A DNA stretch of 62,394 nt from Longimicrobium sp. (GCA_036389795.1 DASVWD010000242.1:1-62394); one strand, 5' to 3'; counted from the stretch's first letter, positions 1 to 47,533 are shown. The notes: generated by a model from the letters alone, not told the origin. Numbers and translations: made by a program.

Positions 1-16
1 TCCGGCCGCCGCGCTT
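1..16 (+). terminator. 3' half of an array-terminating hairpin, cut by the window edge
   Basis: Bases 1-19 are identical to bases 1771-1789, which are the loop end, 3' arm and tail of the hairpin that closes array A. The 5' arm lies outside the window. The simplest reading is that another mini-gene array ends just before base 1. Confidence 0.75.
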
Positions 17-111
17 CGCGTCGGGGCCACGGCTCGGCCCGCCTCCGCTCGACTCGGCCCGGGGGACCGCGACCCGTCCCCCCGGGCGCGCCGCCCGCGG
101 CCGCTTCCGCG

Positions 112-117
112 TAGAAT
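112..117 (+). promoter_or_regulatory. Putative -10 hexamer of array A
   Basis: TAGAAT sits in the context CTTCCGCGTAGAATGGAT, which aligns with CTTCCGCTTACATTTGAT in front of array B. Both lie 30-36 nt before the first (remnant or intact) peptide start. No convincing -35 is visible here, so the -10 rests on its conservation between the two leaders. Confidence 0.45.
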
Positions 118-147: not shown

Positions 148-190
148 CGTGTGATCCGGGCGGCGTCGGCCCGGCGAGGAAACACCGACC
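148..190 (+). pseudogene. Decayed first unit of array A
   Basis: This stretch aligns with the first gene of array B (1926-1991). Shared pieces are GATCCGGGCGGCGTCGG and the following GAGGCATCCATG. About 12 nt are missing after the start codon, one base from the RAG codons and about 13 nt around the DP codons. No family peptide can be read. Confidence 0.6.
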
Positions 191-204
191 CGCGAGAGGC
201 ATCC

Positions 205-263
205 ATGCACGTCACACCGTCGTCCGCGCCGGCCTCGGCCCGGGAATCGACCCCAACGGCTGA
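205..263 (+). pseudogene. Frameshifted mini-gene, array A unit 1
   Basis: The ATG at 205 follows GAGAGGCATCC, but one base is missing after codon 3 (HV). The rest of the peptide, TVVRAGLGPGIDPNG and its TGA at 261, is in another frame with no start of its own. It corresponds by position to gene 2 of array B (2009-2074). The first two units of array A are therefore both broken while the 18 units behind them are intact. Confidence 0.7.
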
Positions 264-287
264 ACCTTTCAGCCAGAGGAGACCGCG

Positions 288-353
288 ATGCACGTCGACA
301 CCGCGACCCGCGCCGGGCAGGGCGCCACGGTGGACCCCAACGGAAGACCCTGA
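288..353 (+). CDS. DPNG-family micropeptide A2
   Basis: Residues 2-21 are HVDTATRAGQGATVDPNGRP. A GAGGAG Shine-Dalgarno stands about 7 nt before ATG. This is the first intact unit of array A. It carries T in place of the usual V/I before RAG. Function is unknown, as for all members. Confidence 0.85.
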   Translation: MHVDTATRAGQGATVDPNGRP

Positions 354-369
354 TCCACGGGAGGCGCCC

Positions 370-429
370 ATGTACGTCCGCACGGTCGTCCGCGCCGGCG
401 CCGGCTCGGAGATCGACCCCAACGGCTGA
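370..429 (+). CDS. DPNG-family micropeptide A3
   Basis: The 19-residue peptide is MYVRTVVRAGAGSEIDPNG. It belongs to the short form that stops right after the invariant NG and lacks the x-P tail. A GGGAGG site lies 6 nt upstream of ATG. Confidence 0.85.
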   Translation: MYVRTVVRAGAGSEIDPNG

Positions 430-451
430 CCTCGCGCCGCGGAGGCGCCTG

Positions 452-517
452 ATGCACGTCGGCACGGCGACCAGGGCGGGGCAGGGCTCCGCCATCGACC
501 CCAACGGCAGTCCCTGA
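452..517 (+). CDS. DPNG-family micropeptide A4
   Basis: Residues 2-21 are HVGTATRAGQGSAIDPNGSP. GGAGG stands 7 nt before ATG. The N-terminal half nearly matches A2 (HVxTATRAGQG), which suggests recent local duplication. Confidence 0.86.
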   Translation: MHVGTATRAGQGSAIDPNGSP

Positions 518-533
518 CCAGAGGGAGACAGCG

Positions 534-599
534 ATGCACGTCGATACCGCGATCCGGGCCGGGCAGGGCTCCGGCATCGATCCCAACGGCACACCCTGA
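534..599 (+). CDS. DPNG-family micropeptide A5
   Basis: Residues 2-21 are HVDTAIRAGQGSGIDPNGTP. A GGGAGA site precedes ATG. DPN is encoded GATCCCAAC here but GACCCCAAC in A2-A4, a synonymous change inside the conserved motif. Confidence 0.87.
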   Translation: MHVDTAIRAGQGSGIDPNGTP

Positions 600-613
600 C
601 CTCGGAGGAGGCG

Positions 614-679
614 ATGCACGTCCACGCCACGATCCGCGCCGGGCAGGGCGTGACGCTCGACCCCAGCGGGAAACCCTGA
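614..679 (+). CDS. DPNG-family micropeptide A6
   Basis: Residues 2-21 are HVHATIRAGQGVTLDPSGKP. GGAGGAGG lies 2-9 nt before ATG. It is the only member with S in the N position of DPNG and one of two with L before the D. Confidence 0.85.
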   Translation: MHVHATIRAGQGVTLDPSGKP

Positions 680-692
680 CCAGGAGCCGGCG

Positions 693-758
693 ATGCCTGT
701 GCACACGACACTGCGGGCCGGGCAGGGCGGCCTGATCGATCCCAACGGCAAGCCCTGA
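693..758 (+). CDS. DPNG-family micropeptide A7
   Basis: Residues 2-21 are PVHTTLRAGQGGLIDPNGKP. AGGAG lies 7 nt before ATG. Proline at residue 2 is unique in the family. Confidence 0.85.
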   Translation: MPVHTTLRAGQGGLIDPNGKP

Positions 759-770
759 CCGGAGGAAGCC

Positions 771-836
771 ATGCACGTCCGCGCAACGGTCCGGGCAGGC
801 GAGGGCGGCCTGATCGACCCCAACGGAAAGCCCTGA
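771..836 (+). CDS. DPNG-family micropeptide A8
   Basis: Residues 2-21 are HVRATVRAGEGGLIDPNGKP. GGAGG lies 5 nt before ATG. The GGLIDPNGKP end is shared with A7, but GAC and GGA replace GAT and GGC at silent positions. Confidence 0.87.
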   Translation: MHVRATVRAGEGGLIDPNGKP

Positions 837-849
837 GCGGGAGGAAGCC

Positions 850-909
850 ATGCAGCTCCAGACGACGGTCCGCGCCGGTGAAGGCAGCGCGATCAACCCG
901 AACGGCTGA
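850..909 (+). CDS. DPNG-family micropeptide A9
   Basis: The 19-residue short form is MQLQTTVRAGEGSAINPNG. GGGAGGA precedes ATG. N replaces D of the DPNG motif, as in A15 and A16. Confidence 0.86.
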   Translation: MQLQTTVRAGEGSAINPNG

Positions 910-925
910 CCGCGGGAGGCGCGAG

Positions 926-991
926 ATGACGGTACGTTCCACGATCCGGGCGGGAGAGGGAGGCCTGATCGATCCCGACGGAAGGCACTGA
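926..991 (+). CDS. DPNG-family micropeptide A10
   Basis: Residues 2-21 are TVRSTIRAGEGGLIDPDGRH. GGGAGG lies 8 nt before ATG. It has DPDG instead of DPNG and a final H instead of P. Confidence 0.85.
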   Translation: MTVRSTIRAGEGGLIDPDGRH

Positions 992-1008
992 GCCTACGGA
1001 GGAAGCCG

Positions 1009-1074
1009 ATGCACGTCCAGACGACGGTCCGCGCCGGGCGGGGCGCGATGATCGATCCCAACGGCGCCCCCTGA
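1009..1074 (+). CDS. DPNG-family micropeptide A11
   Basis: Residues 2-21 are HVQTTVRAGRGAMIDPNGAP. GGAGGA lies 6 nt before ATG. It starts a run of five units (A11-A15) with M before I-D/N-P. Confidence 0.87.
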   Translation: MHVQTTVRAGRGAMIDPNGAP

Positions 1075-1089
1075 CCGACGGAGGCAGCC

Positions 1090-1155
1090 ATGCGCGTCGA
1101 CACGACGGTCCGCGCCGGGCGGGGTGGGATGATCGACCCCAACGGGACCCCCTGA
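1090..1155 (+). CDS. DPNG-family micropeptide A12
   Basis: Residues 2-21 are RVDTTVRAGRGGMIDPNGTP. GGAGG lies 7 nt before ATG. It is very close to A11 and A13, typical of local copying within the array. Confidence 0.87.
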   Translation: MRVDTTVRAGRGGMIDPNGTP

Positions 1156-1170
1156 GCCACGGAGGCGGCC

Positions 1171-1236
1171 ATGCGCGTCCGCACGCCGGTCCGCGCCGGG
1201 CAGGGCGGGATGATCGACCCCGAGGGGAAACCCTGA
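1171..1236 (+). CDS. DPNG-family micropeptide A13
   Basis: Residues 2-21 are RVRTPVRAGQGGMIDPEGKP. GGAGG lies 6 nt before ATG. It is the only member with E in the N position of the motif (DPEG). Confidence 0.85.
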   Translation: MRVRTPVRAGQGGMIDPEGKP

Positions 1237-1252
1237 GCCACGGAGGAGAGAG

Positions 1253-1318
1253 GTGAGCGTGAGAGCGGCGGTCCGCGCGGGGCACGGCGGGATGATCGAT
1301 CCGAACGGGAAACCCTGA
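1253..1318 (+). CDS. DPNG-family micropeptide A14 (GTG start)
   Basis: Residues 2-21 are SVRAAVRAGHGGMIDPNGKP. The start is GTG at 1253, chosen because it aligns with the ATG of all other units and follows GGAGGAGAGAG. A second GTG two codons on is possible. Confidence 0.8.
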   Translation: MSVRAAVRAGHGGMIDPNGKP

Positions 1319-1331
1319 CCGGGAGGGCGGG

Positions 1332-1397
1332 ATGAAAGTGAGCGCCACGGTCCACGCCGGAGAGGGCGGGATGATCAACCCCAACGGGACGCCCTGA
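1332..1397 (+). CDS. DPNG-family micropeptide A15
   Basis: Residues 2-21 are KVSATVHAGEGGMINPNGTP. GGGAGG lies 5 nt before ATG. H replaces the near-invariant R of RAG, shared only with B10, and N replaces the motif D. Confidence 0.85.
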   Translation: MKVSATVHAGEGGMINPNGTP

Positions 1398-1413
1398 GTG
1401 AGCGAGGCGAACG

Positions 1414-1479
1414 ATGAACGTGAGAGCGACGGTCCGCGCCGGAGAGGGCGGGGCCATCAACCCCAACGGCAAACCCTGA
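1414..1479 (+). CDS. DPNG-family micropeptide A16
   Basis: Residues 2-21 are NVRATVRAGEGGAINPNGKP. The Shine-Dalgarno is weaker (GCGAGGCGAACG before ATG). It has N in place of the motif D, as in A9 and A15. Confidence 0.85.
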   Translation: MNVRATVRAGEGGAINPNGKP

Positions 1480-1494
1480 GCGGTGGAGCGAGAG

Positions 1495-1554
1495 ATGAAC
1501 GTGAAGGCCACGGTCCGCGCCGGGTACGGCTGCGGGATGGACCCCGACGGATGA
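1495..1554 (+). CDS. DPNG-family micropeptide A17
   Basis: The 19-residue short form is MNVKATVRAGYGCGMDPDG. GGAG lies 7 nt before ATG. It is one of the few members with a cysteine (residue 13), and it has M-D-P-D-G. Confidence 0.84.
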   Translation: MNVKATVRAGYGCGMDPDG

Positions 1555-1578
1555 TCCCCCGGGCCACGGCGGCTCCCG

Positions 1579-1638
1579 ATGCAGACCCGGACGACGGTCC
1601 GGGCCGGTGCGGGCGGCGGCGTAGACCCGAACGGCTGA
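1579..1638 (+). CDS. DPNG-family micropeptide A18, penultimate unit
   Basis: The 19-residue short form is MQTRTTVRAGAGGGVDPNG. No clear Shine-Dalgarno is seen (CGGCGGCTCCCG before ATG). It corresponds to B11, the penultimate unit of array B, and has the same 23-nt spacer behind it. Confidence 0.82.
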   Translation: MQTRTTVRAGAGGGVDPNG

Positions 1639-1661
1639 CCACACACGAAGGAGACGATTCG

Positions 1662-1727
1662 ATGCGATGCAGCACGAACGTGCGCGCCGCCACCGGCGGT
1701 GCCATGGACCCCAACGGCGGCCCCTGA
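1662..1727 (+). CDS. DPNG-family micropeptide A19, last unit of array A
   Basis: Residues 2-21 are RCSTNVRAATGGAMDPNGGP. AAGGAGA lies 8 nt before ATG. The form MRCST-x-VRAA-x-GGAMDPNG is shared only with B12, the last unit of array B. It has cysteine at residue 3 and RAA instead of RAG. Confidence 0.86.
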   Translation: MRCSTNVRAATGGAMDPNGGP

Positions 1728-1753
1728 GCCAGGGTGTCCCGTACGCGAAACAG

Positions 1754-1786
1754 GCGCGGCGGCCGGTGAGTCCGGCCGCCGCGCTT
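1754..1786 (+). terminator. Hairpin closing array A
   Basis: The 5' arm GCGCGGCGGCCGG (1754-1766) pairs perfectly over 13 bp with 1772-1784, leaving a 5-nt loop. Only TT follows, so termination may rely on stem strength or be Rho-assisted. The same hairpin ends array B and, in half, begins the window. Confidence 0.7.
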
Positions 1787-1867
1787 CGCATACATGCCCC
1801 GTGCGCACAGCCCGGCCCATCCCCCGATCCGCTCGACACGGCCGCCGCGCCGCCCATCCCCATCGCG

Positions 1868-1895
1868 TTGGCCCGCAACGCCTTCCGCTTACATT
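1868..1895 (+). promoter_or_regulatory. Putative promoter of array B
   Basis: TTGGCC (1868-1873) and TACATT (1890-1895) are separated by 16 nt. The -10 aligns with TAGAAT of the array A leader. It lies 30 nt before the first start at 1926. Confidence 0.5.
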
Positions 1896-1925
1896 TGATC
1901 GTGCCGCGCCAACCCTGGAGGAGCC

Positions 1926-1991
1926 ATGCGCGTACGCCTGACGATCCGGGCCGGCGTCGGCTCGGCGATCGACCCCGACGGGAAACCCTGA
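1926..1991 (+). CDS. DPNG-family micropeptide B1
   Basis: Residues 2-21 are RVRLTIRAGVGSAIDPDGKP. GGAGGAG lies 3-9 nt before ATG. It is the first unit of array B; its counterpart in array A is decayed (148-190). Confidence 0.86.
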   Translation: MRVRLTIRAGVGSAIDPDGKP

Positions 1992-2008
1992 TTCGACGGG
2001 AGGCATCC

Positions 2009-2074
2009 ATGCTCGTCCGCACGCTCGTCCGGGCCGGCGACGGCTCGCACCTCGACCCCTACGGCAAGCCCTGA
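2009..2074 (+). CDS. DPNG-family micropeptide B2
   Basis: Residues 2-21 are LVRTLVRAGDGSHLDPYGKP. GGGAGG lies 7 nt before ATG. It is the only member with Y in the motif (DPYG). The array A counterpart (205-263) is frameshifted. Confidence 0.84.
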   Translation: MLVRTLVRAGDGSHLDPYGKP

Positions 2075-2088
2075 CCACGGAGACAGCG

Positions 2089-2148
2089 ATGCACGCCAAC
2101 ACCGCGATCCGGGCCGGAGCAGGCTCGAGCATCGACCCCAACGGATGA
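2089..2148 (+). CDS. DPNG-family micropeptide B3
   Basis: The 19-residue short form is MHANTAIRAGAGSSIDPNG. GGAGA lies 6 nt before ATG. The stop is GGA-TGA. Confidence 0.85.
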   Translation: MHANTAIRAGAGSSIDPNG

Positions 2149-2163
2149 GCAAAGGAGGCAGCG

Positions 2164-2229
2164 ATGCACCTCGAGACTGCGATCCGCGCCGCCTACAGCG
2201 GCACGGTCGACCCCAACGGAAAGCTCTGA
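2164..2229 (+). CDS. DPNG-family micropeptide B4
   Basis: Residues 2-21 are HLETAIRAAYSGTVDPNGKL. AAAGGAGG lies 6 nt before ATG. It diverges in the centre (RAAYSG for RAGxGx) and ends in L instead of P. Confidence 0.84.
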   Translation: MHLETAIRAAYSGTVDPNGKL

Positions 2230-2243
2230 GCCGGGAGGAATCC

Positions 2244-2309
2244 ATGCAGATCCAGACGACGGTCCGCGCCGGCCGCGGCGGCGCCATGGACCCCAACGGC
2301 CAACCCTGA
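2244..2309 (+). CDS. DPNG-family micropeptide B5
   Basis: Residues 2-21 are QIQTTVRAGRGGAMDPNGQP. GGGAGGA lies 5 nt before ATG. It has M in the I/V position before D. Confidence 0.86.
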   Translation: MQIQTTVRAGRGGAMDPNGQP

Positions 2310-2322
2310 CCAGGAGACGGCC

Positions 2323-2382
2323 ATGCACGTACATGCAGCGATCCGGGCCGGATACAGCGCCTGCATCGACCCCAACGGATAG
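2323..2382 (+). CDS. DPNG-family micropeptide B6 (TAG stop)
   Basis: The peptide is MHVHAAIRAGYSACIDPNG. It is the only unit ending in TAG. CCC-TGA follows directly, so an ancestral AAG-CCC-TGA (K-P-stop) seems to have been cut by an AAG to TAG change. This shows one way 19-residue forms arise. YSAC adds a cysteine at residue 14. Confidence 0.85.
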   Translation: MHVHAAIRAGYSACIDPNG

Positions 2383-2401
2383 CCCTGACCAGGAGGCGGC
2401 C

Positions 2402-2467
2402 ATGCAGGTTCGCACGACGATCCGGGCCGGATACAGCGCCTGCGTCGATCCCAACGGAACGCCCTGA
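2402..2467 (+). CDS. DPNG-family micropeptide B7
   Basis: Residues 2-21 are QVRTTIRAGYSACVDPNGTP. AGGAGG lies 6 nt before ATG. It shares the YSAC centre with its neighbour B6. Confidence 0.86.
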   Translation: MQVRTTIRAGYSACVDPNGTP

Positions 2468-2480
2468 CCTGGAGGCGGCC

Positions 2481-2540
2481 ATGCAGGTCCAGACGACGAT
2501 TCGGGCCGGGCAGGGCGGAGCGATCGACCCTGACGGCTGA
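2481..2540 (+). CDS. DPNG-family micropeptide B8
   Basis: The 19-residue short form is MQVQTTIRAGQGGAIDPDG. GGAGG lies 6 nt before ATG. It has DPDG, with proline encoded CCT here against CCC or CCG elsewhere. Confidence 0.86.
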   Translation: MQVQTTIRAGQGGAIDPDG

Positions 2541-2561
2541 CCCTGGAGCCCGGAGCGGGAG

Positions 2562-2627
2562 ATGAAGGTGAGAGCCACGGTCCGCGCCGGAAAAGGCGCG
2601 GGCATCGACCCGAACGGCAAGCCCTGA
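2562..2627 (+). CDS. DPNG-family micropeptide B9
   Basis: Residues 2-21 are KVRATVRAGKGAGIDPNGKP. GGAG is followed by CGGGAG before ATG. Its lysine-containing centre is shared with B10. Confidence 0.86.
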   Translation: MKVRATVRAGKGAGIDPNGKP

Positions 2628-2638
2628 GCGAGGTGGAG

Positions 2639-2698
2639 ATGAGCGCGACGACACGCATCCACGCCGGAAAAGGCACGGGCGTCGACCCCAACGGATGA
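2639..2698 (+). CDS. DPNG-family micropeptide B10
   Basis: The 19-residue short form is MSATTRIHAGKGTGVDPNG. The spacer is the shortest in the arrays (11 nt), with GAGGTGGAG next to ATG. H replaces R of RAG. Confidence 0.83.
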   Translation: MSATTRIHAGKGTGVDPNG

Positions 2699-2721
2699 TC
2701 CCTGAGCCACTGAGGATCCCG

Positions 2722-2781
2722 ATGCGAACACAGACGACGGTCCGGGCCGGGCGGGGCGCTGGCGTCGACCCGAACGGCTGA
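2722..2781 (+). CDS. DPNG-family micropeptide B11, penultimate unit
   Basis: The 19-residue short form is MRTQTTVRAGRGAGVDPNG. GAGGATC precedes ATG. It is the positional counterpart of A18. The spacer behind it (ACACGAAGGAGACGAT) is almost identical to that behind A18. Confidence 0.84.
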   Translation: MRTQTTVRAGRGAGVDPNG

Positions 2782-2804
2782 CCGGACACGAAGGAGACGA
2801 TCGG

Positions 2805-2870
2805 ATGCGATGCAGCACGAGCGTGCGCGCCGCCGGCGGCGGCGCCATGGACCCCAACGGCGACGGCTGA
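2805..2870 (+). CDS. DPNG-family micropeptide B12, last unit of array B
   Basis: Residues 2-21 are RCSTSVRAAGGGAMDPNGDG. AAGGAGA lies 8 nt before ATG. It is the counterpart of A19 and ends in DG instead of the usual x-P. Confidence 0.86.
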   Translation: MRCSTSVRAAGGGAMDPNGDG

Positions 2871-2895
2871 GCCCGCCGGCGGTCCCACGACGAAA

Positions 2896-2930
2896 CGGCG
2901 CGGCGGCCGGGTGTCCCGGCCGCCGCGCCG
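2896..2930 (+). terminator. Hairpin closing array B
   Basis: A perfect 16-bp stem (2896-2911 with 2915-2930) closes a 3-nt loop, with core GGCGCGGCGGCCGGG. It lies between the array and the convergent MBL gene and may serve both. Confidence 0.7.
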
Positions 2931-2955
2931 CGTCCGCCGCCGATCCGGCCCGCGC

Positions 2956-8352: not shown

Positions 8353-11300
8353 TCAACGGCCCACCTGCAGCGGCCGCACCTCCACCTCGCGCCGCGCGCC
8401 GTCGTCCACCAGCGGGATCTCGGCCGAATCCAGCACGCGCCCGTCCACGCTCACCTCGGCGCCCAGGCGGCGCACGCCCGCCGGGTCGTGCACGGTGATG
8501 GCGTACACGCTCCGGCCGAAGCGGTATGCGATCGAGAACTCTCCCCACCCGCCGGGGACGCAGGGGCGGATGGCCAGGCGGTCGCCGCGGCGGTCGAAGC
8601 CGAGGATCGCCTCCAGGCCCACGCGGTACATCCAGCTCGCCGAGCCGGTGTACCACGTCCACCCGCCGCGCCCCACCTGTCCGGCGGCGGTGTAGACGTC
8701 GGCCGCGACCACGTACGGCTCCACCTGGTACGTGTCGACCTGGGCCGGCGTGCGCGCGTGGGTGAGCGGGTTGATCATCTGGTAGAGCTCGAAGGCGCGG
8801 TCCCCGTCCCCCGAGAGCGCCGTGGCCAGCACGGCCCAGAGCGCCGCGTGCGTGTACTGCGCGCCGTTCTCGCGCACGCCGGGAAGGTAGCCCTTGATGT
8901 AGCCGGGATCGCGCGGCGTGGCGTCGAACGGCGGCGCCAGCAGCAGCAGGAGGCGCTCGTCCTCGCGCACCAGGTGCTCTTCCAGGGAGCGCATGGCCGT
9001 CGCCCGCCGCTCTGGATCGCCCGCGGCCGAGATCACGCTCCAGCTCTGGGCGATGGAGTCGATCCGGCACTCGTCGCTCGTGGCGGAGCCCAGTGGCGCG
9101 CCGTCGTCGAAGTAGGCGCGGCGGTACCAGGCCCCGTCCCACCCGTGCGCCTCCACCGCCGCGGCATAGCGAGCGGCCGTCGCCCGCAGCTCCGCCGCGA
9201 CGCCATCGTCCCCCCGCGCGCCGGCGCGGACGGCGAAGCGGCGCAGCGTGTCGGCCAGGAACCACGCCAGCCACACGCTCTCGCCCCGTCCCTCCACCCC
9301 CACCCGGTTCATCCCGTCGTTCCAGTCGCCCGCGCCGATCAGCGGCAGGCCGTGCGCGCCGGAGGTGCACGCCTTCCGCAGCGCGCGCAGGCAGTGCTCG
9401 TACACGCTGGCGACCTCGTCCGAGACGGAGGGGAGGTCGTACACCTCGTGCTCGTGCGGCTCCAGCGCTCGCATGGCGAGGAAGGGGACCCGCTCGTCGA
9501 GCAAGGACGCGTCGCCCGTGACCCGCACGTAGTGGTCGGCGACGTACGGCAGCCAGGCGAGGTCGTCGGAGAAGCGGGTGCGCACCCCGCGCCCGCTCTG
9601 CGGGTGCCACCAGTGCTGCACGTCGCCCTCCACGAACTGCCGCGCCGCCGCGCGCACCACGTGCTCGCGGGCGAGCGCGGGCTCGGCGTGGACGAACGCC
9701 ATCACGTCCTGCAGCTGGTCGCGGAAGCCGTAGGCGCCGCTGCTCTGGTACAGCGCCGAGCGCGCCCACATGCGGCAGGCGAGCGCCTGGTAGAGGGTCC
9801 AGCGGTTCAGCATCGCGTCGAACGAGGGCTCCGGCGTGCGGACGGCGATCACCGACAGCCGCTCCGCCCATCCGTCCACGCTCCGCGCCGCCGCCGAGCG
9901 CGCGAGGGCGGGGTCGCGGTACGCGTCCACCAGCCGCCGCGCCTCGTCCTCCCCCTCCGCCGCGCCGAGGAGCACCACCACGTCGCGCGCCTCGCCGGGG
10001 GCCAGCTCCAGCACGCACCGCAGCGCGGCGCAGGGGTCCATTCCCGCGCCGTGCCGGCCGGAGAGCGCCTCGCCACGCAGGCCGGCCGGGGCCGCGAGCG
10101 TGCCGTTGCGGCCCAGGAACTCGCGCCGGTCGCCGGTGTGGCCGGCCAGCGGCTCGCTCAGCGCGCAGAAGGCCACCTGCCCGGCGAACTGCGGGTCGAA
10201 GAAGTTGCGCGCGAACACCGCGCCGCGACCCGCGTCCACCCCGGTCTGCACCTGGTGCTGCGTGTGCTCGCGCAGCACGCCCAGCGTCCACTCGGCGTAC
10301 GCGACGAGCGCGATGCGGCGCGGCGTGGCACCCGGGTTGGCGACGCAGAGCCGCGACACCTTCACCGGGTCGTCGCCCGCCATCGCCATCACGAGCCGCG
10401 TGGCGATGCCGGCGTGCTCGTGCGCGAACGAGGTCCAGCCGGCGCCGTGGCGCACGGTGTACGGCGCGTTGCGGCGGACGGGCGCGGGGGTGGCGCTCCA
10501 CGTCTCGCCGCTCTCCTCGTCGCGCAGGTACAGCGCCTCGCCCGCGGGGTCGCCCACGGGGTCGTTGTGCCACGGGGTGAGCCGGTAGAAGAAGCTGTTC
10601 TTCGCCCAGGTGAAGCCGCCGCCGCGCTCGGTGACCAGAAAGCCGCCGCGCGCGTTCGCCACCACGTTGGCCCACGGCGCGGGGGGAACGCGGTCGCCGC
10701 GCACCCGCACCTCGTAGTCGTCCTCCACGGTCAATCCCCCGAAGCCGTTGTCGAAGCGGAGCGCCGCGGCGCCGGCCTCCTCATCCGCGCCGTCGTCCGC
10801 GCCCGCCGGCAGGTCCGACGCCCGGCGCGCGGACGGGGAGGGCGGGTCCGCTGCAGAGGCGAAAGATGCGGAACGATGCGCGCCGCTGCGCCGGAGCGCG
10901 GGCGCGGGGACGATGCGCCGCTCGGGGGCGCGGACGACGAGGACGTCGGGCTCGCCGTCTTCGCCCACGTCGTCGGGCGCCAGCCGCGCGGCCAGGATGC
11001 GGCCCAGCGAGCGGCCGTCGCACTCCACGTGCACGCGGGCGGTGGCGCGCAGCATGAGGAGCTGCTCCGCGGGGAGCAGGTCGTGCTGCCGCACGAACAC
11101 GCCCCCTGGCTGGTCCAGCACGCCCGCGTCGCTCGAGGCGGCGAGCGCCTCGGCGATCCGCTCCGGGAGCTGCTGCAGGTAGCTGGCGGGCTGCCGGTCG
11201 ACCACCACCAGGTCAACCTTCATCCCGCGGCGCCGCCAGTAGTGGTGCGCGGCGAAGAGCTGGCGCAGCGTGGGCAGCCCCTCGGCCGAGTCGAGGGTGG

Positions 11301-14300
11301 CCAGCACCACCGGCAGGTCGCCCGAGACGCCGTTCGCCCACAGCAGGGGCTGCGAGCCGCGGCTCCGGAGCAGCTCCTCCGGGCCGGCGCGCAGCTCGGG
11401 GGCGGGATAGAAGAGGTAGCCGGCCAGCTCCTGGAAGACGGCGGCCTCGGCGGGGGTCACGCCCAGCTCGCGCAGCTCCACCTGGGTGCTGGTCCACGCC
11501 AGGTCGAGCGCGCGCTGGGCGGCGTGCGGGTCGTGGTAGCGCCCCGCCAGCTCGAAGGCGCGCTCGCGCGAGTCGGCCACCAGCGTGGTGAAGGCGGCGG
11601 ACGCCGACTGCCCCGGCTCCAGGCGGAGGCGCGCGCGCAGCGCGAAGACGGGGTCCAGCACGGCGCCGGTGGTCCCGGAGAGCGCGCCGTCCGCCTCCAG
11701 CGCCAGCGGCGCGCGGGTGGAGCGCCCGCGGCCCACGAAGCGCGCGCGGTCGGTCTCGCAGCTCACCTCGCCCGCGCGGTGGGGGCCGGCGTCCACCACG
11801 TGCACGCACCAGAGCGGCTTCTCGCCGGCCGAGCGCGGCCGGCGCGTGGCGGTCACCGCCGTGCACCAGGGGTGGTACTCGGTCTCCACGAACAGGTTGG
11901 CGAACGCCGGGTGCGCGCGGTCGGCGTCGGGGAGGCCCAGCACGATCTCGCCGTAGCTGGTGAGCTCCACCTCGCGGGGGCGGTCGCCCCGGTTGGTCAC
12001 GGTGACGCGCCGCACCTCGGCGTGGTCGCCGGGGACCACGGTGATCTCGGTGCGGGTCTCCACCTCGCCGTCGGCGCGGTGGAAGGTGACGCGGTCGGTG
12101 GCGAGGAGCGCGTGGTACACGTCGGCCGGGGCGCACACGGGCTGGTGCGCGGCCGACCAGGCGCGCCCCGTCGCCAGGTCCTTGACGTAGCAGAACTGCC
12201 CCGTGCTGTCGCTGGTGCCGTCGGCGCGCCAGCGGGTGACGGCCAGCTCGCCGTGGCGGCTGTAGCCGGAGCCGCAGTGGCTCACCATCAGCGTGTAGGG
12301 GAGGCGTCCCAGCAGCGCCACGTGCGGCTGCGGCGTGTCGGCCGCGTGGATCTCGCGCACGGCCGGCCGCTCCAGCTCGGGGTCGGGGAGCGCCTCGTCG
12401 GGGCGCGCGGCCTGCGGCTCCTGCAGCGCCAGCCGGCGCGGGATGCGCTCGTGCAGCAGCAGCTCGGCCGAGCGCACCAGGGGGTCGGCGTGGAAGCGCC
12501 GCTGCCACCGGTCGCCGTCCAGCACGTTGGCCAGCGCCACCAGCGTCATCCCCACGTGGTGCGCCATGTAGTTCTTCACCACGGCGTAGCGCGCCCCCGG
12601 CTCGGGGCGGGTGTAGTCGAGCGCGTCGCGGAAGCCGTACGGCCCCAGCGCGCCCATCTTCTCCAGCGCGCCCAGGTTGGCCAGCGCCCGCCGCGGCTCC
12701 ACCAGCGCCGCGAGCGCCGAGGCGTACGGGGCCACCACCAGATCGCGCCCCAGCCCGCGCTTCAGCGCCAGGTCGGGGACGCCGAAGGCGCGGTACTGGT
12801 AGGTAAGGTGGCGGTCGCGCAGGTTGTAGGCGCTCTCGCTGACCCCCCAGGGGACGCCGCGCGCGGCCCCGTAGGCCAGCTGGCGCCCCACCGCCCCCGC
12901 CGCGCTCTGGTCCAGCAGGGTGGAGGGGAGCGAGCGCATCACCAGCGCGGGCATCAGGTACTCGAACATGCTCCCGCTCCACGACACCAGCGCGGTGTGG
13001 CCGGCGGCGTGGGTGAGGGTGCGCCCCAGGTGGAACCAGTGCCCGGCCGGGACGTCGCCCCGGGCGATGGCGACGAAGCTGGCCAGCCGCGCCTCCGAGG
13101 CCAGCAGGTCGTAGGTGGACGGGTCCAGCGCGTGGGCCGCCTCCTGGTAGCCGATGGAGAACAGCTTCCGCTCGCCGTCGAAGAGGAAGCGGAAGTCCAT
13201 CTCCATGGCGTACCGGTACGCGCGGCTCCCCACCGCCTCCAGCCGCGCCACCAGCTCCGAGGCGGCGGTGCTGCGCTCCGCGAGCCGGCGGAGGGTGAGG
13301 GGCGGCGACTCTCCGTCCGCGCCGGCGTACGTCTGCCCCCCGTCTCCCATCGGGTTCGCCGCGTGCTCGTCGATGCGGCGCGCGCTCCACGCGATCCACT
13401 CCGCCGCCGGCGCGGAGCCGTCGGGCGCCAGGCCGGCCGAGTGCAGCCCTGCGAGCGCCCGGCGGAGGACGTCCCCCGCGGCGGCGAGCGGCGCGGGAGC
13501 GGGATCGGCGGAATCGGCCCCGTCCAGCAGCGCCCGCGCGGCGCGCACCTGCTCCGCGGCCCGCGCCACGGCCGCCCTCGCCGCGGCGTCGCCCAGCACC
13601 GCGGGCGAGGTGGCCAGCTCGTCCAGGCGGCCGAGCGCCAGCGAGAGCGCGGCGGCCAGCGCGCGCGCCACGCGCCCGTCCGCCACCGGGGCGTCGGCGA
13701 TCTCCAGGCACGCCTGCCGCAGCGCGATCAGGTGGCCGGCCAGGTTGCCGCTGTCGACGGTGGAGACGTACGCCGGCTCCAGCACACGCAGGTCGTGCAG
13801 GTCGTACCAGTTGTAGAAGTGGCCCCGGAAGCGGCGCATCCGCTCCAGCGCGCGGAAGGCCAGCTCCAGCCGCGCGGTCATCTCCGACGCGGTGACGAAC
13901 CCCAGGTCGCACGCGCTGGCGGTGGCCAGGAGCTGCAGCCCCAGGTTGGTGGGCGAGGTGCGCATCGCCACCACCGGAAGCGGGTCTTCCTGGAAGTTGT
14001 CGGGCACGAGCCCGTGCGTCTCGGCCGTGACGAAGCGGTCGAAGTAGCGCCAGTGCAGGAGCGCGTACCGCATCGCCTGGCCGGTGGCGGCGGCGGGCAG
14101 CCGGTGGGCGCGGCGCGCGGAAGGCTTCCCCAGCGCGTGGGCGATCGCCGGGGAGAGGGTCCACAGCAGGCTCAGGGGGAGGACCGCGGCCAGGAGCGGC
14201 GGCAGCGGGGCGTCGCCCGTCCGCGCCGCCAGCGCCAGCGCTCCGATCCCGACGGAGACCGCCACCGCCGGCCCCATCGTCCGCCACGCGGCGCGCGGCG

Positions 14301-17148
14301 AGTCCGACACGGTCCGCTCCGCCACCGACGCGGTCTGCCACTCCAGCAGGTGGCGCCGGGTGACGAAGAGGCGCCAGAGCGTGCGGGCGATGGCGTCGGC
14401 CGAGATCCAGGCCTGGTGCGGGAGGAAGGCCAGCGCCAGCCCCACCTGCCGCGCGCTGGTGGCGGCGTCGCGCCCCACGGCCGCGTAGTAGGCGCGCCAC
14501 GAGCGGTCCCGCGGCGGGCGGACGGCGGCCAGGAGGAGGGAGACGATCCACGGCGCGGCGACGGCGAGCGCCCCCAGCACCGTCCAGCAGAGCGGCGGGC
14601 CGGGGAGGAACAGCCACCCCGCCGCCAGGAAGGCGAGCTGGGCGATCTCCACCGTGCTGCGGCGGAGGTTGTCCAGGATCTTCCACCGCGACAGCAGCGA
14701 CAGCCGGTTGGGCTCGGGCCCGCTGGGGCCGGGAACGCGGCGTCCCAGCCAGCGCAGGAGCTGCCAGTCGCCGCGGATCCAGCGGTGCCGGCGGCGGGCG
14801 TGGGTCAGGTAGCGCGCGGGGTAGTCGTCGTACAGCTCCAAGTCGGTGGCCAGCCCGGCCCGGACGTAGCTCCCCTCGATCAGGTCGTGCGAGAGGAGCG
14901 CGTTCTCCGGGAAGCGGCCGTGGGTCGCCCGCTCGAACGCGTCCAGGTCGTAGATCCCCTTCCCCGTGAAGCTCCCCTCGCCGTACAGGTCCTGGTAGAC
15001 GTCGGAGACGGCCGTGGTGTACGGGTCCACGCCGGGGTGCCCCGAGTGGATGGCCGCGAAGCGCGAGGCGTGGGCGCTGGGGAGCGAGACGCCCACCCGC
15101 GGCTGCAGGATGCCGTAGCCGCGCGTCACCCGGCCGGCGCGGGGGTCGTACCCGGCGCGGTTCAGCGGATGCGCCAGCGCGCCCACCAGCCGCGCGGCGG
15201 TGCCCGGCGGCAGCACCGTGTCGGCGTCCAGCGTGATCACGTAGCGCACCCCGCCGAGCGCCGCCACGTCGCCGACGACCGTCGAGAAGGCGCCCTCCGC
15301 GCCGCCGCGCACGAAGCGGTTGAAGTCGGCCAGCTTGCCGCGCTTGCGCTCCCACCCCATCCACACGCCCTCGCGCGGGTTCCAGCGGCGCGGCCGGTGG
15401 AAGAGGTAGAAGGCGTCCTCCGCCCCCGCGGCGTACTGCGCGTTGAGGGCCCGCACCCCGTCCGCCGCCGCGGCCACGATCTCTGCGTCGCCCGGCAGCG
15501 CTTCGGCGGGCGCGTCGGTGAAGTCGCCCAGCACGGCGAAGTGCAGGTTGGGCTCGCGGTTGGCCAGGTACTGCACCTCCAGGTGCTCCAGCGCCTCGCG
15601 CACCCCCTGCACGCCGTCGAACAGCGTGGGGACGACGACGGCGGTGCGCAGCTCCGGCGGGATGCCGCCGTTCTCGCGCAGGTCCAGCCGGGGGAGGAGG
15701 CGCGGGGGGAGGAAGGCGGCCACCAGCTGGTTCACCACCCCCACGGCGATGTCGTTGGCCAGCACGGCGGCGATCAGGAGGACGACCGCCACGGCGGCGG
15801 CGGAGGCCCGCGCCTGTGGGCCCGCCAGCCAGAAGAGCGCCGCGAGCGCGGCCGCCGTCCCGGCGAGCATCCCGCCCACGAACACGGCGTCGGGGTGGCG
15901 CAGCACCCGGCGGTGCACCCGCTCGCCGGGCGTCGGACGGTACCCCTGGGCGCGCTCCAGCTCCGTGCGCCCCGCGTCGATCAGCCACCAGCCGACGTGG
16001 CCGCGCGGTGGATCGCCGGCCGCGCCGTCCGCGGCCGCGCCCGCGGCCAGGGCGACCGCCGCCCGCGCCACTTCGCTCTCGCCCCGCCCGCCGCCGCGGG
16101 CGATCCGCTCCACGGCGTGGCGGTAGCGGTCGCGGGTGGCGAAGGTCATGGCGGCGTAGACCCCGGCGGGGTCGCCGCGGAGCACCGCCTCCACCGCGCT
16201 GTGCCGCTCCACGAAGGCGCGCCAGTCCACCAGGGCGATGCCGCGCAGCGAGGTGATGCTGTTCGCCATCATCACCTGCGTGAGCGCCGTCCGCTGCGTG
16301 GCCTGCGCCGCGGCCTCCTCGGCGGTCACGCCCCGGCCGGCGATCCACCCCTCCAGCGCCGGCAGCGCGCCGCGCCCCAGCCGCAGCTGGTGCAGCAGGC
16401 GCGACACGAAGACCTCCGTGAGCGGGGGGTGCGCGGCCACGAACGCCCTGAGCGCCGCCGCCCGGGCCGGCTCGCCCTCGCCGCCCGCGTCGATGCGCGC
16501 GGCCCACGCGTCCGCCGCCTCCACCTCGTCCAGGCGCTGCACCGTGCGCAGCGCCATCCGCCGCACGCTCTCCAGCAGCCCCAGCCGCAGCATGGCGGGA
16601 ACCGCCCACAGCTCGCCCAGGGTGAGCGGCGCCTCTTCCTGGAACGCCGCCACGAAAGGGCCGGCGTTCCCGGGGTGCACGCGCCCTTCGCTGTGCGAGA
16701 TCAGGGTGATGGCCAGCTCGTAGACGCGCGGATACCCCGCCAGCGGCCCGCCCGCCAGCTCGGGGAGCTCGCGGTAGTAGCCGGCGGGGAGGCTCTCGCG
16801 CACCTCGCGGACGTGCTCGCGCACCACGTGGAAGTTGTCCAGCAGCCACTCGCCCGCGGGCCCCACGTCGGCGCCGGCGTCGGCCGCGGCGGCCAGCCGC
16901 GCGTGGGCGTCGTGCAGGATGCGGCGGGTGCCCGCGAGCCGCGCCAGCAGGGGCGTGCCGCGCGCCCGGCGCCCGGGCGCGCCCACGCGCTGGGCGCGCG
17001 CGGCGGCGCGGGCCCGCGCCGCCAGATCGTCGGCGCCCAGCAGCTCGCCGCGCAGGGGGCCCGCCAGTTCGGGCGGCTCGGCCGCGGGGAGGTGGAGGAG
17101 GCGCGAGAAGGCGCGGTACGACTTTCGTGCGGCGGTGCGGAGCGGCAT
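8353..17148 (-). CDS. ndvB: Cyclic beta-1,2-glucan synthase-like protein (NdvB family)
   Basis: A giant 2931-residue inner-membrane enzyme, close to the usual ~2800 of NdvB. Order from the N-terminus: a helical region; membrane helices near residues 423-475; a family-2-like glycosyltransferase core with DADTVLPPG near 650; more membrane helices; a glycoamylase-like domain; and a C-terminal GH94-type phosphorylase region with GAGDWNDGMNRVG near residue 2608 carrying the catalytic aspartate. In the family, the transferase builds a protein-linked beta-glucan, the phosphorylase module sets its length, and the ring is released to the periplasm for osmotic adaptation or host contact. Whether this one makes beta-1,2 rings is inferred. 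Confidence 0.93.
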   Translation of the reverse strand: MPLRTAARKSYRAFSRLLHLPAAEPPELAGPLRGELLGADDLAARARAAARAQRVGAPGRRARGTPLLARLAGTRRILHDAHARLAAAADAGADVGPAGEWLLDNFHVVREHVREVRESLPAGYYRELPELAGGPLAGYPRVYELAITLISHSEGRVHPGNAGPFVAAFQEEAPLTLGELWAVPAMLRLGLLESVRRMALRTVQRLDEVEAADAWAARIDAGGEGEPARAAALRAFVAAHPPLTEVFVSRLLHQLRLGRGALPALEGWIAGRGVTAEEAAAQATQRTALTQVMMANSITSLRGIALVDWRAFVERHSAVEAVLRGDPAGVYAAMTFATRDRYRHAVERIARGGGRGESEVARAAVALAAGAAADGAAGDPPRGHVGWWLIDAGRTELERAQGYRPTPGERVHRRVLRHPDAVFVGGMLAGTAAALAALFWLAGPQARASAAAVAVVLLIAAVLANDIAVGVVNQLVAAFLPPRLLPRLDLRENGGIPPELRTAVVVPTLFDGVQGVREALEHLEVQYLANREPNLHFAVLGDFTDAPAEALPGDAEIVAAAADGVRALNAQYAAGAEDAFYLFHRPRRWNPREGVWMGWERKRGKLADFNRFVRGGAEGAFSTVVGDVAALGGVRYVITLDADTVLPPGTAARLVGALAHPLNRAGYDPRAGRVTRGYGILQPRVGVSLPSAHASRFAAIHSGHPGVDPYTTAVSDVYQDLYGEGSFTGKGIYDLDAFERATHGRFPENALLSHDLIEGSYVRAGLATDLELYDDYPARYLTHARRRHRWIRGDWQLLRWLGRRVPGPSGPEPNRLSLLSRWKILDNLRRSTVEIAQLAFLAAGWLFLPGPPLCWTVLGALAVAAPWIVSLLLAAVRPPRDRSWRAYYAAVGRDAATSARQVGLALAFLPHQAWISADAIARTLWRLFVTRRHLLEWQTASVAERTVSDSPRAAWRTMGPAVAVSVGIGALALAARTGDAPLPPLLAAVLPLSLLWTLSPAIAHALGKPSARRAHRLPAAATGQAMRYALLHWRYFDRFVTAETHGLVPDNFQEDPLPVVAMRTSPTNLGLQLLATASACDLGFVTASEMTARLELAFRALERMRRFRGHFYNWYDLHDLRVLEPAYVSTVDSGNLAGHLIALRQACLEIADAPVADGRVARALAAALSLALGRLDELATSPAVLGDAAARAAVARAAEQVRAARALLDGADSADPAPAPLAAAGDVLRRALAGLHSAGLAPDGSAPAAEWIAWSARRIDEHAANPMGDGGQTYAGADGESPPLTLRRLAERSTAASELVARLEAVGSRAYRYAMEMDFRFLFDGERKLFSIGYQEAAHALDPSTYDLLASEARLASFVAIARGDVPAGHWFHLGRTLTHAAGHTALVSWSGSMFEYLMPALVMRSLPSTLLDQSAAGAVGRQLAYGAARGVPWGVSESAYNLRDRHLTYQYRAFGVPDLALKRGLGRDLVVAPYASALAALVEPRRALANLGALEKMGALGPYGFRDALDYTRPEPGARYAVVKNYMAHHVGMTLVALANVLDGDRWQRRFHADPLVRSAELLLHERIPRRLALQEPQAARPDEALPDPELERPAVREIHAADTPQPHVALLGRLPYTLMVSHCGSGYSRHGELAVTRWRADGTSDSTGQFCYVKDLATGRAWSAAHQPVCAPADVYHALLATDRVTFHRADGEVETRTEITVVPGDHAEVRRVTVTNRGDRPREVELTSYGEIVLGLPDADRAHPAFANLFVETEYHPWCTAVTATRRPRSAGEKPLWCVHVVDAGPHRAGEVSCETDRARFVGRGRSTRAPLALEADGALSGTTGAVLDPVFALRARLRLEPGQSASAAFTTLVADSRERAFELAGRYHDPHAAQRALDLAWTSTQVELRELGVTPAEAAVFQELAGYLFYPAPELRAGPEELLRSRGSQPLLWANGVSGDLPVVLATLDSAEGLPTLRQLFAAHHYWRRRGMKVDLVVVDRQPASYLQQLPERIAEALAASSDAGVLDQPGGVFVRQHDLLPAEQLLMLRATARVHVECDGRSLGRILAARLAPDDVGEDGEPDVLVVRAPERRIVPAPALRRSGAHRSASFASAADPPSPSARRASDLPAGADDGADEEAGAAALRFDNGFGGLTVEDDYEVRVRGDRVPPAPWANVVANARGGFLVTERGGGFTWAKNSFFYRLTPWHNDPVGDPAGEALYLRDEESGETWSATPAPVRRNAPYTVRHGAGWTSFAHEHAGIATRLVMAMAGDDPVKVSRLCVANPGATPRRIALVAYAEWTLGVLREHTQHQVQTGVDAGRGAVFARNFFDPQFAGQVAFCALSEPLAGHTGDRREFLGRNGTLAAPAGLRGEALSGRHGAGMDPCAALRCVLELAPGEARDVVVLLGAAEGEDEARRLVDAYRDPALARSAAARSVDGWAERLSVIAVRTPEPSFDAMLNRWTLYQALACRMWARSALYQSSGAYGFRDQLQDVMAFVHAEPALAREHVVRAAARQFVEGDVQHWWHPQSGRGVRTRFSDDLAWLPYVADHYVRVTGDASLLDERVPFLAMRALEPHEHEVYDLPSVSDEVASVYEHCLRALRKACTSGAHGLPLIGAGDWNDGMNRVGVEGRGESVWLAWFLADTLRRFAVRAGARGDDGVAAELRATAARYAAAVEAHGWDGAWYRRAYFDDGAPLGSATSDECRIDSIAQSWSVISAAGDPERRATAMRSLEEHLVREDERLLLLLAPPFDATPRDPGYIKGYLPGVRENGAQYTHAALWAVLATALSGDGDRAFELYQMINPLTHARTPAQVDTYQVEPYVVAADVYTAAGQVGRGGWTWYTGSASWMYRVGLEAILGFDRRGDRLAIRPCVPGGWGEFSIAYRFGRSVYAITVHDPAGVRRLGAEVSVDGRVLDSAEIPLVDDGARREVEVRPLQVGR

Positions 17149-45919: not shown

Positions 45920-47527
45920 ATGAAACGCAGAGAGTTCCTCCTGCAAGGCAGCGCGCTGGCGGCGGGCACGGCCCTGCTGCCGCGGCTGGCCCGGGCGAGC
46001 GAGCCGCGCGAGGACTGGTTGCAGGACCCGCAGACGCGCGAGCTGGCCATGCGCGCCCTCGACGCGGCCAGGAGCGCCGGCGCATCTTACGCCGACGTGC
46101 GCATCTCCCGCGCGCGCAACCAGGCGCTCGGCACCCGCGAGCGCCAGATCACCTTCTTCAACGACGCCGACACCTTCGGCTTCGGGGTGCGCGTCCTGGC
46201 CGGCGGGGCCTGGGGCTTCGCCGCCAGCCGCGACCTCACCCCCGACGAGGTGACGCGCGTGGCCCGCCAGGCGGTGGAGCAGGCGCGCGCCAACGCCCGC
46301 GCCATGCAGCGCCCGGTGGAGCTGGCGCCCGCCGAGGTGCACCGCGACGCGAAGTGGACCTCGCCGGTGGAGGTCGACCCCTTCACCGTCCCGATCGAGG
46401 AGAAGGTGGCGCTGCTCCTGGCCGCCAACGACGCGGCGCTCAAGGTGCAGGGGGCGCGCTTCGTCAACTCGCTGATGTTCTTCCTCAAGCAGGAGAAGAC
46501 CTTCGCCAGCACGGAAGGGTCCTACATCGAGCAGACCCTCTTCCGCTCGTGGCCCACGATGAACATCACGGCCGTGGCGCCCGACTTCTCCGACTTCCAG
46601 CAGCGCCAGTCCACCGACGTGGCTCCGCGCGGGCTGGGCTACGAGCACGTGCGGGGCGCCCGGCTGGTGGAGACGGCCCCGCGCTGGGCCGAGGAGGCGG
46701 TGCAGAAGCTCTCGGCCAAGCCGGTGCAGCCGGGGCGCTACGACCTGGTGCTCCTGCCCACGCACCTGTGGCTCACCATCCACGAGTCGATCGCGCACCC
46801 CACCGAACTCGACCGCATCATGGGGTTCGAGGGCAACTACGCGGGGACCAGCTTCATCTCGCCGATCCAGGACTACCTGGGGAGGTTCCGCTACGGCCCC
46901 GACTTCATGAACATCCAGGGCGAGCGCTCCATGCCCGGCGGGCTCTCCTCGGTGGGCTACGACGACGAGGGGGTCAAGCCCGACGAGTACCTGATCGTGA
47001 GGAACGGGATGCTGAACGACCTGCAGACCACCCGCGAGCAGGCGCCGTGGCTGTCCGACTGGTACCGGCAGAGCGGGCGGCCGGTGCGCTCGCACGGCAA
47101 CAGCTACGCCGAGAACTGGTCGGTGGTGCAGTTCCAGCGCATGCCCAACGTGAACCTGCTGCCCAACGCGCAGCGCGACGTGAGCGTCGAGGAGCTGGTC
47201 TCCGGCGTCCAGGACGGGATCCTGATCGACGGCGACGGGAGCTTCTCCATCGACCAGCAGCGCTACAACGCGCAGTTCGGCGGGCAGGTGTTCCGCGAGA
47301 TCAAGAACGGCCGGATCACGGGGATGCTGAAGGACGTCGCCTACCAGATGCGCACCCCCGAGTTCTGGAACTCGATGGATGGCCTGGGCGGGCGGGGCAC
47401 CTGGTTCGTGGGGGGCTCCTTCTTCGACGGCAAGGGGCAGCCCTCGCAGTCCAACGCCGTGTCGCACGGCTCGCCGGCCGCGCGCTTCCGCAAGGTCAAC
47501 GTCATCAACACCGGACGGAGGGGCTGA
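45920..47527 (+). CDS. tldD: TldD-family metallopeptidase with Tat signal
   Basis: A 535-residue peptidase. The zinc motif HExxxH is HESIAHPTELDR. The N-terminus KRREFLLQGSALAAGTALLP is a twin-arginine export signal, which is not a feature of classic cytoplasmic TldD. The start at 45920 follows GGAGCACCC. TldD/TldE heterodimers open short or leader peptides in known systems such as microcin B17 maturation. The partner gene follows after 6 nt. Export, possibly of both partners as one complex, is inferred from the signal. Confidence 0.9.
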   Translation: MKRREFLLQGSALAAGTALLPRLARASEPREDWLQDPQTRELAMRALDAARSAGASYADVRISRARNQALGTRERQITFFNDADTFGFGVRVLAGGAWGFAASRDLTPDEVTRVARQAVEQARANARAMQRPVELAPAEVHRDAKWTSPVEVDPFTVPIEEKVALLLAANDAALKVQGARFVNSLMFFLKQEKTFASTEGSYIEQTLFRSWPTMNITAVAPDFSDFQQRQSTDVAPRGLGYEHVRGARLVETAPRWAEEAVQKLSAKPVQPGRYDLVLLPTHLWLTIHESIAHPTELDRIMGFEGNYAGTSFISPIQDYLGRFRYGPDFMNIQGERSMPGGLSSVGYDDEGVKPDEYLIVRNGMLNDLQTTREQAPWLSDWYRQSGRPVRSHGNSYAENWSVVQFQRMPNVNLLPNAQRDVSVEELVSGVQDGILIDGDGSFSIDQQRYNAQFGGQVFREIKNGRITGMLKDVAYQMRTPEFWNSMDGLGGRGTWFVGGSFFDGKGQPSQSNAVSHGSPAARFRKVNVINTGRRG

Positions 47528-47533
47528 AACCCA

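Follow-up and report, generated by a model that had tools for sequence, protein, structure and literature searches.

What could a bacterium make from dozens of tandem genes that each encode only some twenty residues? The question is raised by the start of contig C242 of a Longimicrobium sp. genome (7.5 Mb in 285 contigs), which was analyzed here as a window of 62,394 nucleotides (GCA_036389795.1, DASVWD010000242.1:1-62394), the first base of which coincides with the contig end. Between positions 288 and 2870 the window holds 30 intact open reading frames (ORFs), each of 19 or 21 residues, in two arrays. Judged from sequence comparison, these ORFs are probably minimal precursor genes for a large repertoire of short exported peptides. 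The genes themselves, their copy numbers in two species, their co-occurrence with an exporter operon, the leader-end motif in common with other precursors and the cores that are identical between the species carry this conclusion.

Thirty genes of one family

The arrays and the proposed layout of their genes are as follows.

288 to 1727, plus strand: array 1, 18 intact precursor ORFs, starting at 288, 370, 452, 534, 614, 693, 771, 850, 926, 1009, 1090, 1171, 1253 (GTG), 1332, 1414, 1495, 1579 and 1662
1926 to 2870, plus strand: array 2, 12 intact precursor ORFs, starting at 1926, 2009, 2089, 2164, 2244, 2323, 2402, 2481, 2562, 2639, 2722 and 2805
Each array ORF: residues 1-10 putative leader, residues 11-19 putative core, then an optional tail

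An earlier note on this DNA, made from the sequence alone, had described 30 intact tandem genes of one family, and all 30 were recovered. The lengths of 18-21 residues given there narrow to 19 or 21, as the window contains no 18-residue units. Translation starts at ATG in all ORFs except the one at 1253, and 29 end on TGA and one on TAG. A Shine-Dalgarno (SD)-like purine run lies 5' of 29 of the 30 units rather than of every one, the signal before unit 1579 being weak. The spacers of 11-24 nt hold within the arrays, whereas the arrays themselves are 198 nt apart. M1, A9, P17 and G19 are invariant across the window; over all 135 copies of the family only M1 is, and the invariance that had been claimed for the other three relaxes to 133/135 for A9, 121/135 for P17 and 130/135 for G19.

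The units evolve as protein-coding genes. Differences between nearest-neighbour units at codon positions 1, 2 and 3 number 83, 61 and 133, nearest pairs give a median ratio of nonsynonymous to synonymous change (NG86 dN/dS) of about 0.48, and the invariant residues are encoded by several synonymous codons. The distance from one unit to the next is for the most part not divisible by three, yet every unit keeps its own frame; the array is therefore not one degenerate long frame. The excess of third-position changes, the lack of which the earlier note had named among its refuting signs, is thus present within the window, and between species the identical cores are mostly written in different codons. 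Scans against Pfam and NCBIfam of the 21 window units of at least 20 residues (shorter units were skipped) gave no match, in agreement with the view that the family has no database name. A structured RNA was considered and rejected, as an Rfam scan gave no match.

A profile search of the source genome yielded 55 copies at E<=0.001 (best 2e-13). Including the window, the units of standard spacing in this genome number 73, of which two have a disrupted C-terminus; the sites beyond the window are two arrays on contig C189, five units on C277 and one unit at the contig end of C275. A congener, G004, carries 62 units on its contig C68, where they run to a contig end. The family is carried by two of ten genomes of the genus. 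The profile search of Gemmatimonadota that had been suggested was run on 395 genomes of the phylum and found arrays in the source genome and G004; a third genome, G038, gave one marginal match (E 7e-4) that falls within a 334-residue frame and was taken as chance.

A repertoire of cores kept between species

Residues 11-19 are all different within each genome (73/73 in the source genome, 62/62 in G004), although this uniqueness is not significant by itself against column shuffles. The comparison between the species is more telling: 14 cores are identical, against a null mean of 0.56 and a maximum of 5 in 2000 shuffles, whereas two leaders are identical, against a null mean of 0.42. Among these cores are YSACIDPNG, EGWLIDPNG and QGGLIDPNG. 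With one exception, the identical cores are spelt with different codons in the two species, and tails such as -KP differ for one and the same core. Because specific cores are kept while the unconstrained leader positions drift, the arrays look like a repertoire of distinct products rather than redundant dosage copies.

A subfamily found in both genomes has D16 replaced by Cys (I-C-P-N-G) and a Gly/Ser-rich tail of 10-17 residues. It occurs at the following sites.

L041:2147-2528
L041:1252-1362
L059:16470-16895

The linked exporter operon

Both on C189 and in G004 three genes precede an array, the start of which lies no more than about 210 nt downstream of them. The products of these genes are a HlyD-like adaptor, a protein of about 927 residues that combines a C39 peptidase with an ATP-binding cassette (ABC), and a second ABC protein of about 700 residues. 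The proteins of the two operons are 69-71% identical. The operon was found once in the source genome, on C189 beside the sister arrays. A query specific for the second ABC protein matched only the source genome and G004 among the 395 phylum genomes, and peptides and operon co-occur in just these two.

The exporter chain contains an N-terminal Peptidase_C39 domain (PF03412, 67 bits; cut-off 22) and an ABC ATPase (PF00005, 80 bits; cut-off 25), and it thereby qualifies as a C39-peptidase ABC transporter (PCAT). Its residues Q19, C25, H105 and D121, conserved in both genomes, align with the catalytic Gln, Cys, His and Asp of PCAT1. The exporter is all that the gene neighbourhoods of the two operons have in common, so that the neighbourhood indicates no maturation enzyme. 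A plasmid search with the exporter returned one record that matched over most of the query, at 35% identity.

The leader motif at related exporter loci

The species genomes of GTDB were scanned with the N-terminal 620 residues of the C39-ABC protein, which gave 161 relatives (42-54% identity), of which 80 loci were kept. These belong to Acidobacteria, Myxococcota, Chloroflexi, Planctomycetota, Proteobacteria and one Gemmatimonadales bin. A HlyD gene closely precedes the exporter gene in 51 of the 76 testable loci, and a gene for the second ABC protein follows downstream in 52 of 62. Small ORFs near these exporters have K/R-[T/S]-x-[V/I]-[R/K]-A-G in common, whereas the C-terminal parts of these ORFs are unrelated. 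The motif [KR][TS]x[VI][RK]AG was found in 61 ORFs in 36 of the 80 loci, against a mean of 2.0 loci and a maximum of 14 for 1500 permuted motifs; a strict version that includes an SD sequence was found in 21 ORFs in 19 loci (permuted mean 0.45 ORFs, maximum 8).

The position of the motif within these precursors is that of a leader end. In Sorangium microviridin precursors it stands between the PFFARFL leader and the KYPSDSD core, and in the multicore precursors of L143, L145 and L156 it is repeated ahead of each core. In some ORFs of 15-16 residues beside the exporter relatives the motif lies within the first ten residues, and in MKVKTNVKAGSVNWG and MRTKTKVRAGNSSWGS these ten residues make up the whole leader. 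For instance, L091 (Anaerolineae) has three tandem copies of MKVKTNVKAG-SVNWG, and L095 encodes MRTKTKVRAG-NSSWGS.

The same positions are conserved within the N-terminal half of the window family, namely residues 5 and 7-10.

MHVRATVRAGEGGLIDPNGKP: example of a family precursor peptide, with T5, V7, R8, A9 and G10

Counted back from the putative leader end, the 135 copies have T(-6) in 113, V/I/L(-4) in 129, R(-3) in 116, A(-2) in 133 and G(-1) in 120, with A-A instead of A-G at -2/-1 in 13. The array peptides of C189 and G004 are small ORFs beside the exporter that carry [T/S]-x-[V/I/L]-[R/K]-A-G; the window arrays have the motif without the adjacent exporter. Since the motif is shared with the precursors of related exporters, the window peptides are read as a leader M-x-V-x-T-x-V-R-A-G followed by a core x-G-x-x-I-D-P-N-G. 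The earlier note had held that no leader favoured any role for the peptides. This view has to be given up: residues 1-10 form a leader-type motif common to otherwise unrelated precursors, and in two genomes the arrays follow a C39-peptidase exporter operon. The link had escaped notice because the window does not contain that operon.

The survey also turned up precursors of other kinds. Microviridin-type precursors with the exporter tag occur at L102, L109 and L112 (Sorangium) and at L155 (Planctomycetota), so that graspetides are paired with this exporter family. The multicore precursors of four loci, L124 among them, carry the tag ahead of every core, have an N-H-N-Q/A-type motif per core and belong to no database family. 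At Burkholderiales loci a protein of 609-635 residues adjoins MKIKSNVRAG...VPPVSRCVGI precursors; the one from L120, which was the one tested, has no Pfam match, and the protein is possibly a maturase of a new type for the MKIKSNVRAG peptides.

L143:7979-8380: multicore precursor
L145:3302-3757: multicore precursor
L156:8461-8721: multicore precursor
L124:8404-8595: multicore precursor
L120:4580-6409: 609-635-residue protein
L136:4645-6510: 609-635-residue protein
L142:4458-6365: 609-635-residue protein

Proposed mechanism

In the mechanism that we propose, each array would be transcribed as a single operon from which many mini-precursors are translated. The C39 cysteine-peptidase domain of the exporter would pick out the precursors by the T-x-V-R-A-G part of their ten-residue leader and cut after A-G, and the remaining core of about nine residues, with an optional tail that is mostly x-P, would be exported by the ABC pair and HlyD. 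The C189 operon would serve the window arrays in trans. Arrays grow via duplication and some of their units decay, and the outcome would be about 70 distinct peptides per genome. To our knowledge, a leader of ten residues would be the shortest of any C39 substrate.

Several observations weigh against this mechanism. Canonical C39 leaders have GG, GA or GS at -2/-1 and hydrophobic residues at -4, -7 and -12 (PMC10885120). The family mostly has A-G instead; only the hydrophobic residue at -4 is kept, position -7 is mostly polar and the leader ends at -10. With only -4 kept and a leader too short for -12, recognition must differ from that of canonical C39 leaders. Furthermore, the window arrays lie on a different contig from the operon, and in 44 of the 80 exporter loci the scan found no motif ORF. 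Conservation is as high at G12 and D16-G19 as in the leader motif, and the constraint therefore reaches beyond the proposed leader. The cleavage site, the export, the absence of modification and the biological role are inferred.

A bolder generalization, which we offer tentatively as falling somewhat short of probable, is that HlyD, C39-ABC and ABC form a widespread new secretion system with a ten-residue leader, here expanded to about 70 distinct short peptides per cell, an extracellular vocabulary free of redundancy in which some peptides are individually conserved between species.

Nature and role of the products

The earlier note had listed several possible roles, among which that of a multi-product peptide locus now gains support. 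The products are probably extracellular signals or (narrow) antimicrobials, two roles that are inseparable here, and a modified product is conceivable because other users of the exporter family are ribosomally synthesized and post-translationally modified peptides (RiPPs).

In fact, the most serious alternative, though the less probable one, is that the peptides are true RiPPs: a maturase with its gene elsewhere in the genome would modify the cores, for instance at D-P-N-G, before they are cut and exported by the same machinery. The conservation of D-P-N-G suggests a chemical constraint, and the Sorangium microviridins, which use a related exporter, have MvdD-type ATP-grasp genes adjacent to them. 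Around both operons, however, only the exporter is common, and an MvdD-type ATP-grasp enzyme was not found at E<=0.001 in the source genome (G000; a draft, 98% complete), for which reason a graspetide of the microviridin type was rejected. The YcaO, LanM and other maturase types were not part of that search. The source genome does have one SPASM radical-SAM protein, but such proteins occur in eight of ten genus genomes with a distribution that does not track the peptides, and this candidate was rejected as not specific.

It is unlikely, if only by a little more so, that the exported cores are antimicrobials, a bacteriocin set, and not signals. C39/HlyD exporters often carry bacteriocins, many distinct products would suit an arms race, and there is the subset with Gly/Ser-rich tails (L041, L059). 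On the other hand, the cores are very short and show no clear amphipathic or cationic character, the arrays of C189 and G004 have no evident immunity gene next to them, and the retention of identical cores by two species speaks against a fast arms race.

It is very improbable that the peptides remain intracellular, serve there as small regulators or binding partners and adjoin the exporter by coincidence: the contig of the window arrays has no exporter and the peptides no classical signal peptide, but arrays adjoin the exporter in two genomes, the co-occurrence is exclusive, and unrelated precursors next to related exporters carry the same leader motif. A DNA or RNA repeat with frames that are open by accident could account for the tandem period of about 80 nt, but is hardly conceivable in view of the third-position excess, the synonymous codon variety at invariant residues, the frame kept per unit despite periods that are not multiples of three, the lack of an Rfam match and the mostly different encoding of identical cores in the two species.

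Operon anatomy and further features of the window

Arrays 1 and 2 are duplicated copies of one operon module. Their upstream regions align with each other, the final two units of array 1 match the final two of array 2, and the units with which array 2 begins have broken counterparts at the head of array 1.

1 to 19, plus strand: match to 1771-1789, the right arm of the array-1 hairpin
112 to 117, plus strand: TAGAAT, possible -10 element of array 1, aligned with 1890-1895; weak
About 148-190, plus strand: decayed unit remnant, which aligns with unit 1926 of array 2
205 to 263, plus strand: frameshifted (broken) unit that heads array 1
1745 to 1789, plus strand: GC-rich hairpin at the end of array 1, -39.7 kcal/mol, z -5.4; no T run
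1890 to 1895, plus strand: TACATT, possible -10 element of array 2, aligned with 112-117
2889 to 2934, plus strand: GC-rich hairpin at the end of array 2, -44.9 kcal/mol, z -5.1; no T run

The span of 148-2932 originally given for the arrays thus includes, besides the intact units, the frameshifted unit and the remnant. With a common upstream region and a terminal hairpin, each array seems to be one operon; a consensus scan found no sigma-70 promoter and no T-run terminator. Because bases 1-19 match the hairpin arm of array 1, a further array operon has probably been cut off by the contig start, to the left of the window. Broken units like that at 205-263 also occur in the sister arrays (L039:9305-9379, L039:9724-9810 and L041:3408-3540), and together they constitute a birth-and-death pattern.

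Elsewhere in the window, positions 45920-48886 encode a TldD/PmbA-type metallopeptidase pair, the first member of which has a Tat-like N-terminus. TldD/E enzymes process some peptides in other systems; the present pair lies 43 kb from the arrays and is probably unrelated to them. On the minus strand, 8353-17148 is a single ORF of 2931 residues, possibly a cyclic beta-glucan synthase, judged by its size.

Significance and comparison with known systems

The analysis ties an unnamed gene family to a testable mechanism, and a short sequence tag finds precursors of many peptide types beside one exporter family in several phyla. If the mechanism is true, ORFs of 15-21 residues, which are skipped in routine annotation, would be a rich source of secreted peptides, and the C39 domain would here be a protease that needs just a ten-residue tag. 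About 70 different peptides per genome, with some cores kept between species, call for a function, be it a signalling code or an antimicrobial set. A literature search with the leader strings gave nothing relevant (the sole match was a scanned journal page of 1891), but subscription papers were mostly outside this search, so a prior description is possible. Nothing relevant was found on Gemmatimonadota RiPPs or this exporter cassette either.

By mode of working the peptides would be of the C39-exported double-glycine type, although no named family fits. With the NHLP/NHLM bacteriocin export systems (TIGR03794, TIGR03796 and TIGR03797) the linked operon shares the HlyD adaptor, the C39-ABC and the second ABC protein, but the peptides have no nitrile-hydratase-like leader. 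The scores of the operon with these models (180, 87 and 39 bits) lie far under the curated cut-offs of 853, 709 and 156, and membership of this bacteriocin system was rejected. With the microviridins and graspetides of Sorangium (NF033738, PF12559) the V-K/R-A-G tag at the border of leader and core and related exporters are common, whereas the long PFFARFL leader, the KYPSDSD core and the ATP-grasp enzymes of the former have no counterpart in the window family. The prochlorosins and the LahT cluster (PMC10885120) likewise combine many precursors and distinct cores with one processing system; they have long leaders and lanthionine synthetases, whereas the window family has ten-residue leaders and constrained cores and no maturase was found. 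A close parallel is formed by the double-glycine C39 systems of the PCAT/AMS type, such as LahT, PCAT1 and ComA. The catalytic C39 residues, the ABC exporter, precursors beside the transporter, small residues at -1/-2 and a hydrophobic residue at -4 are common to all. Compared with these, the window family has a leader of ten residues that ends on A-G and lacks the hydrophobic residues at -7 and -12, and it adds the conserved T(-6) and R/K(-3) and dozens of precursor genes.

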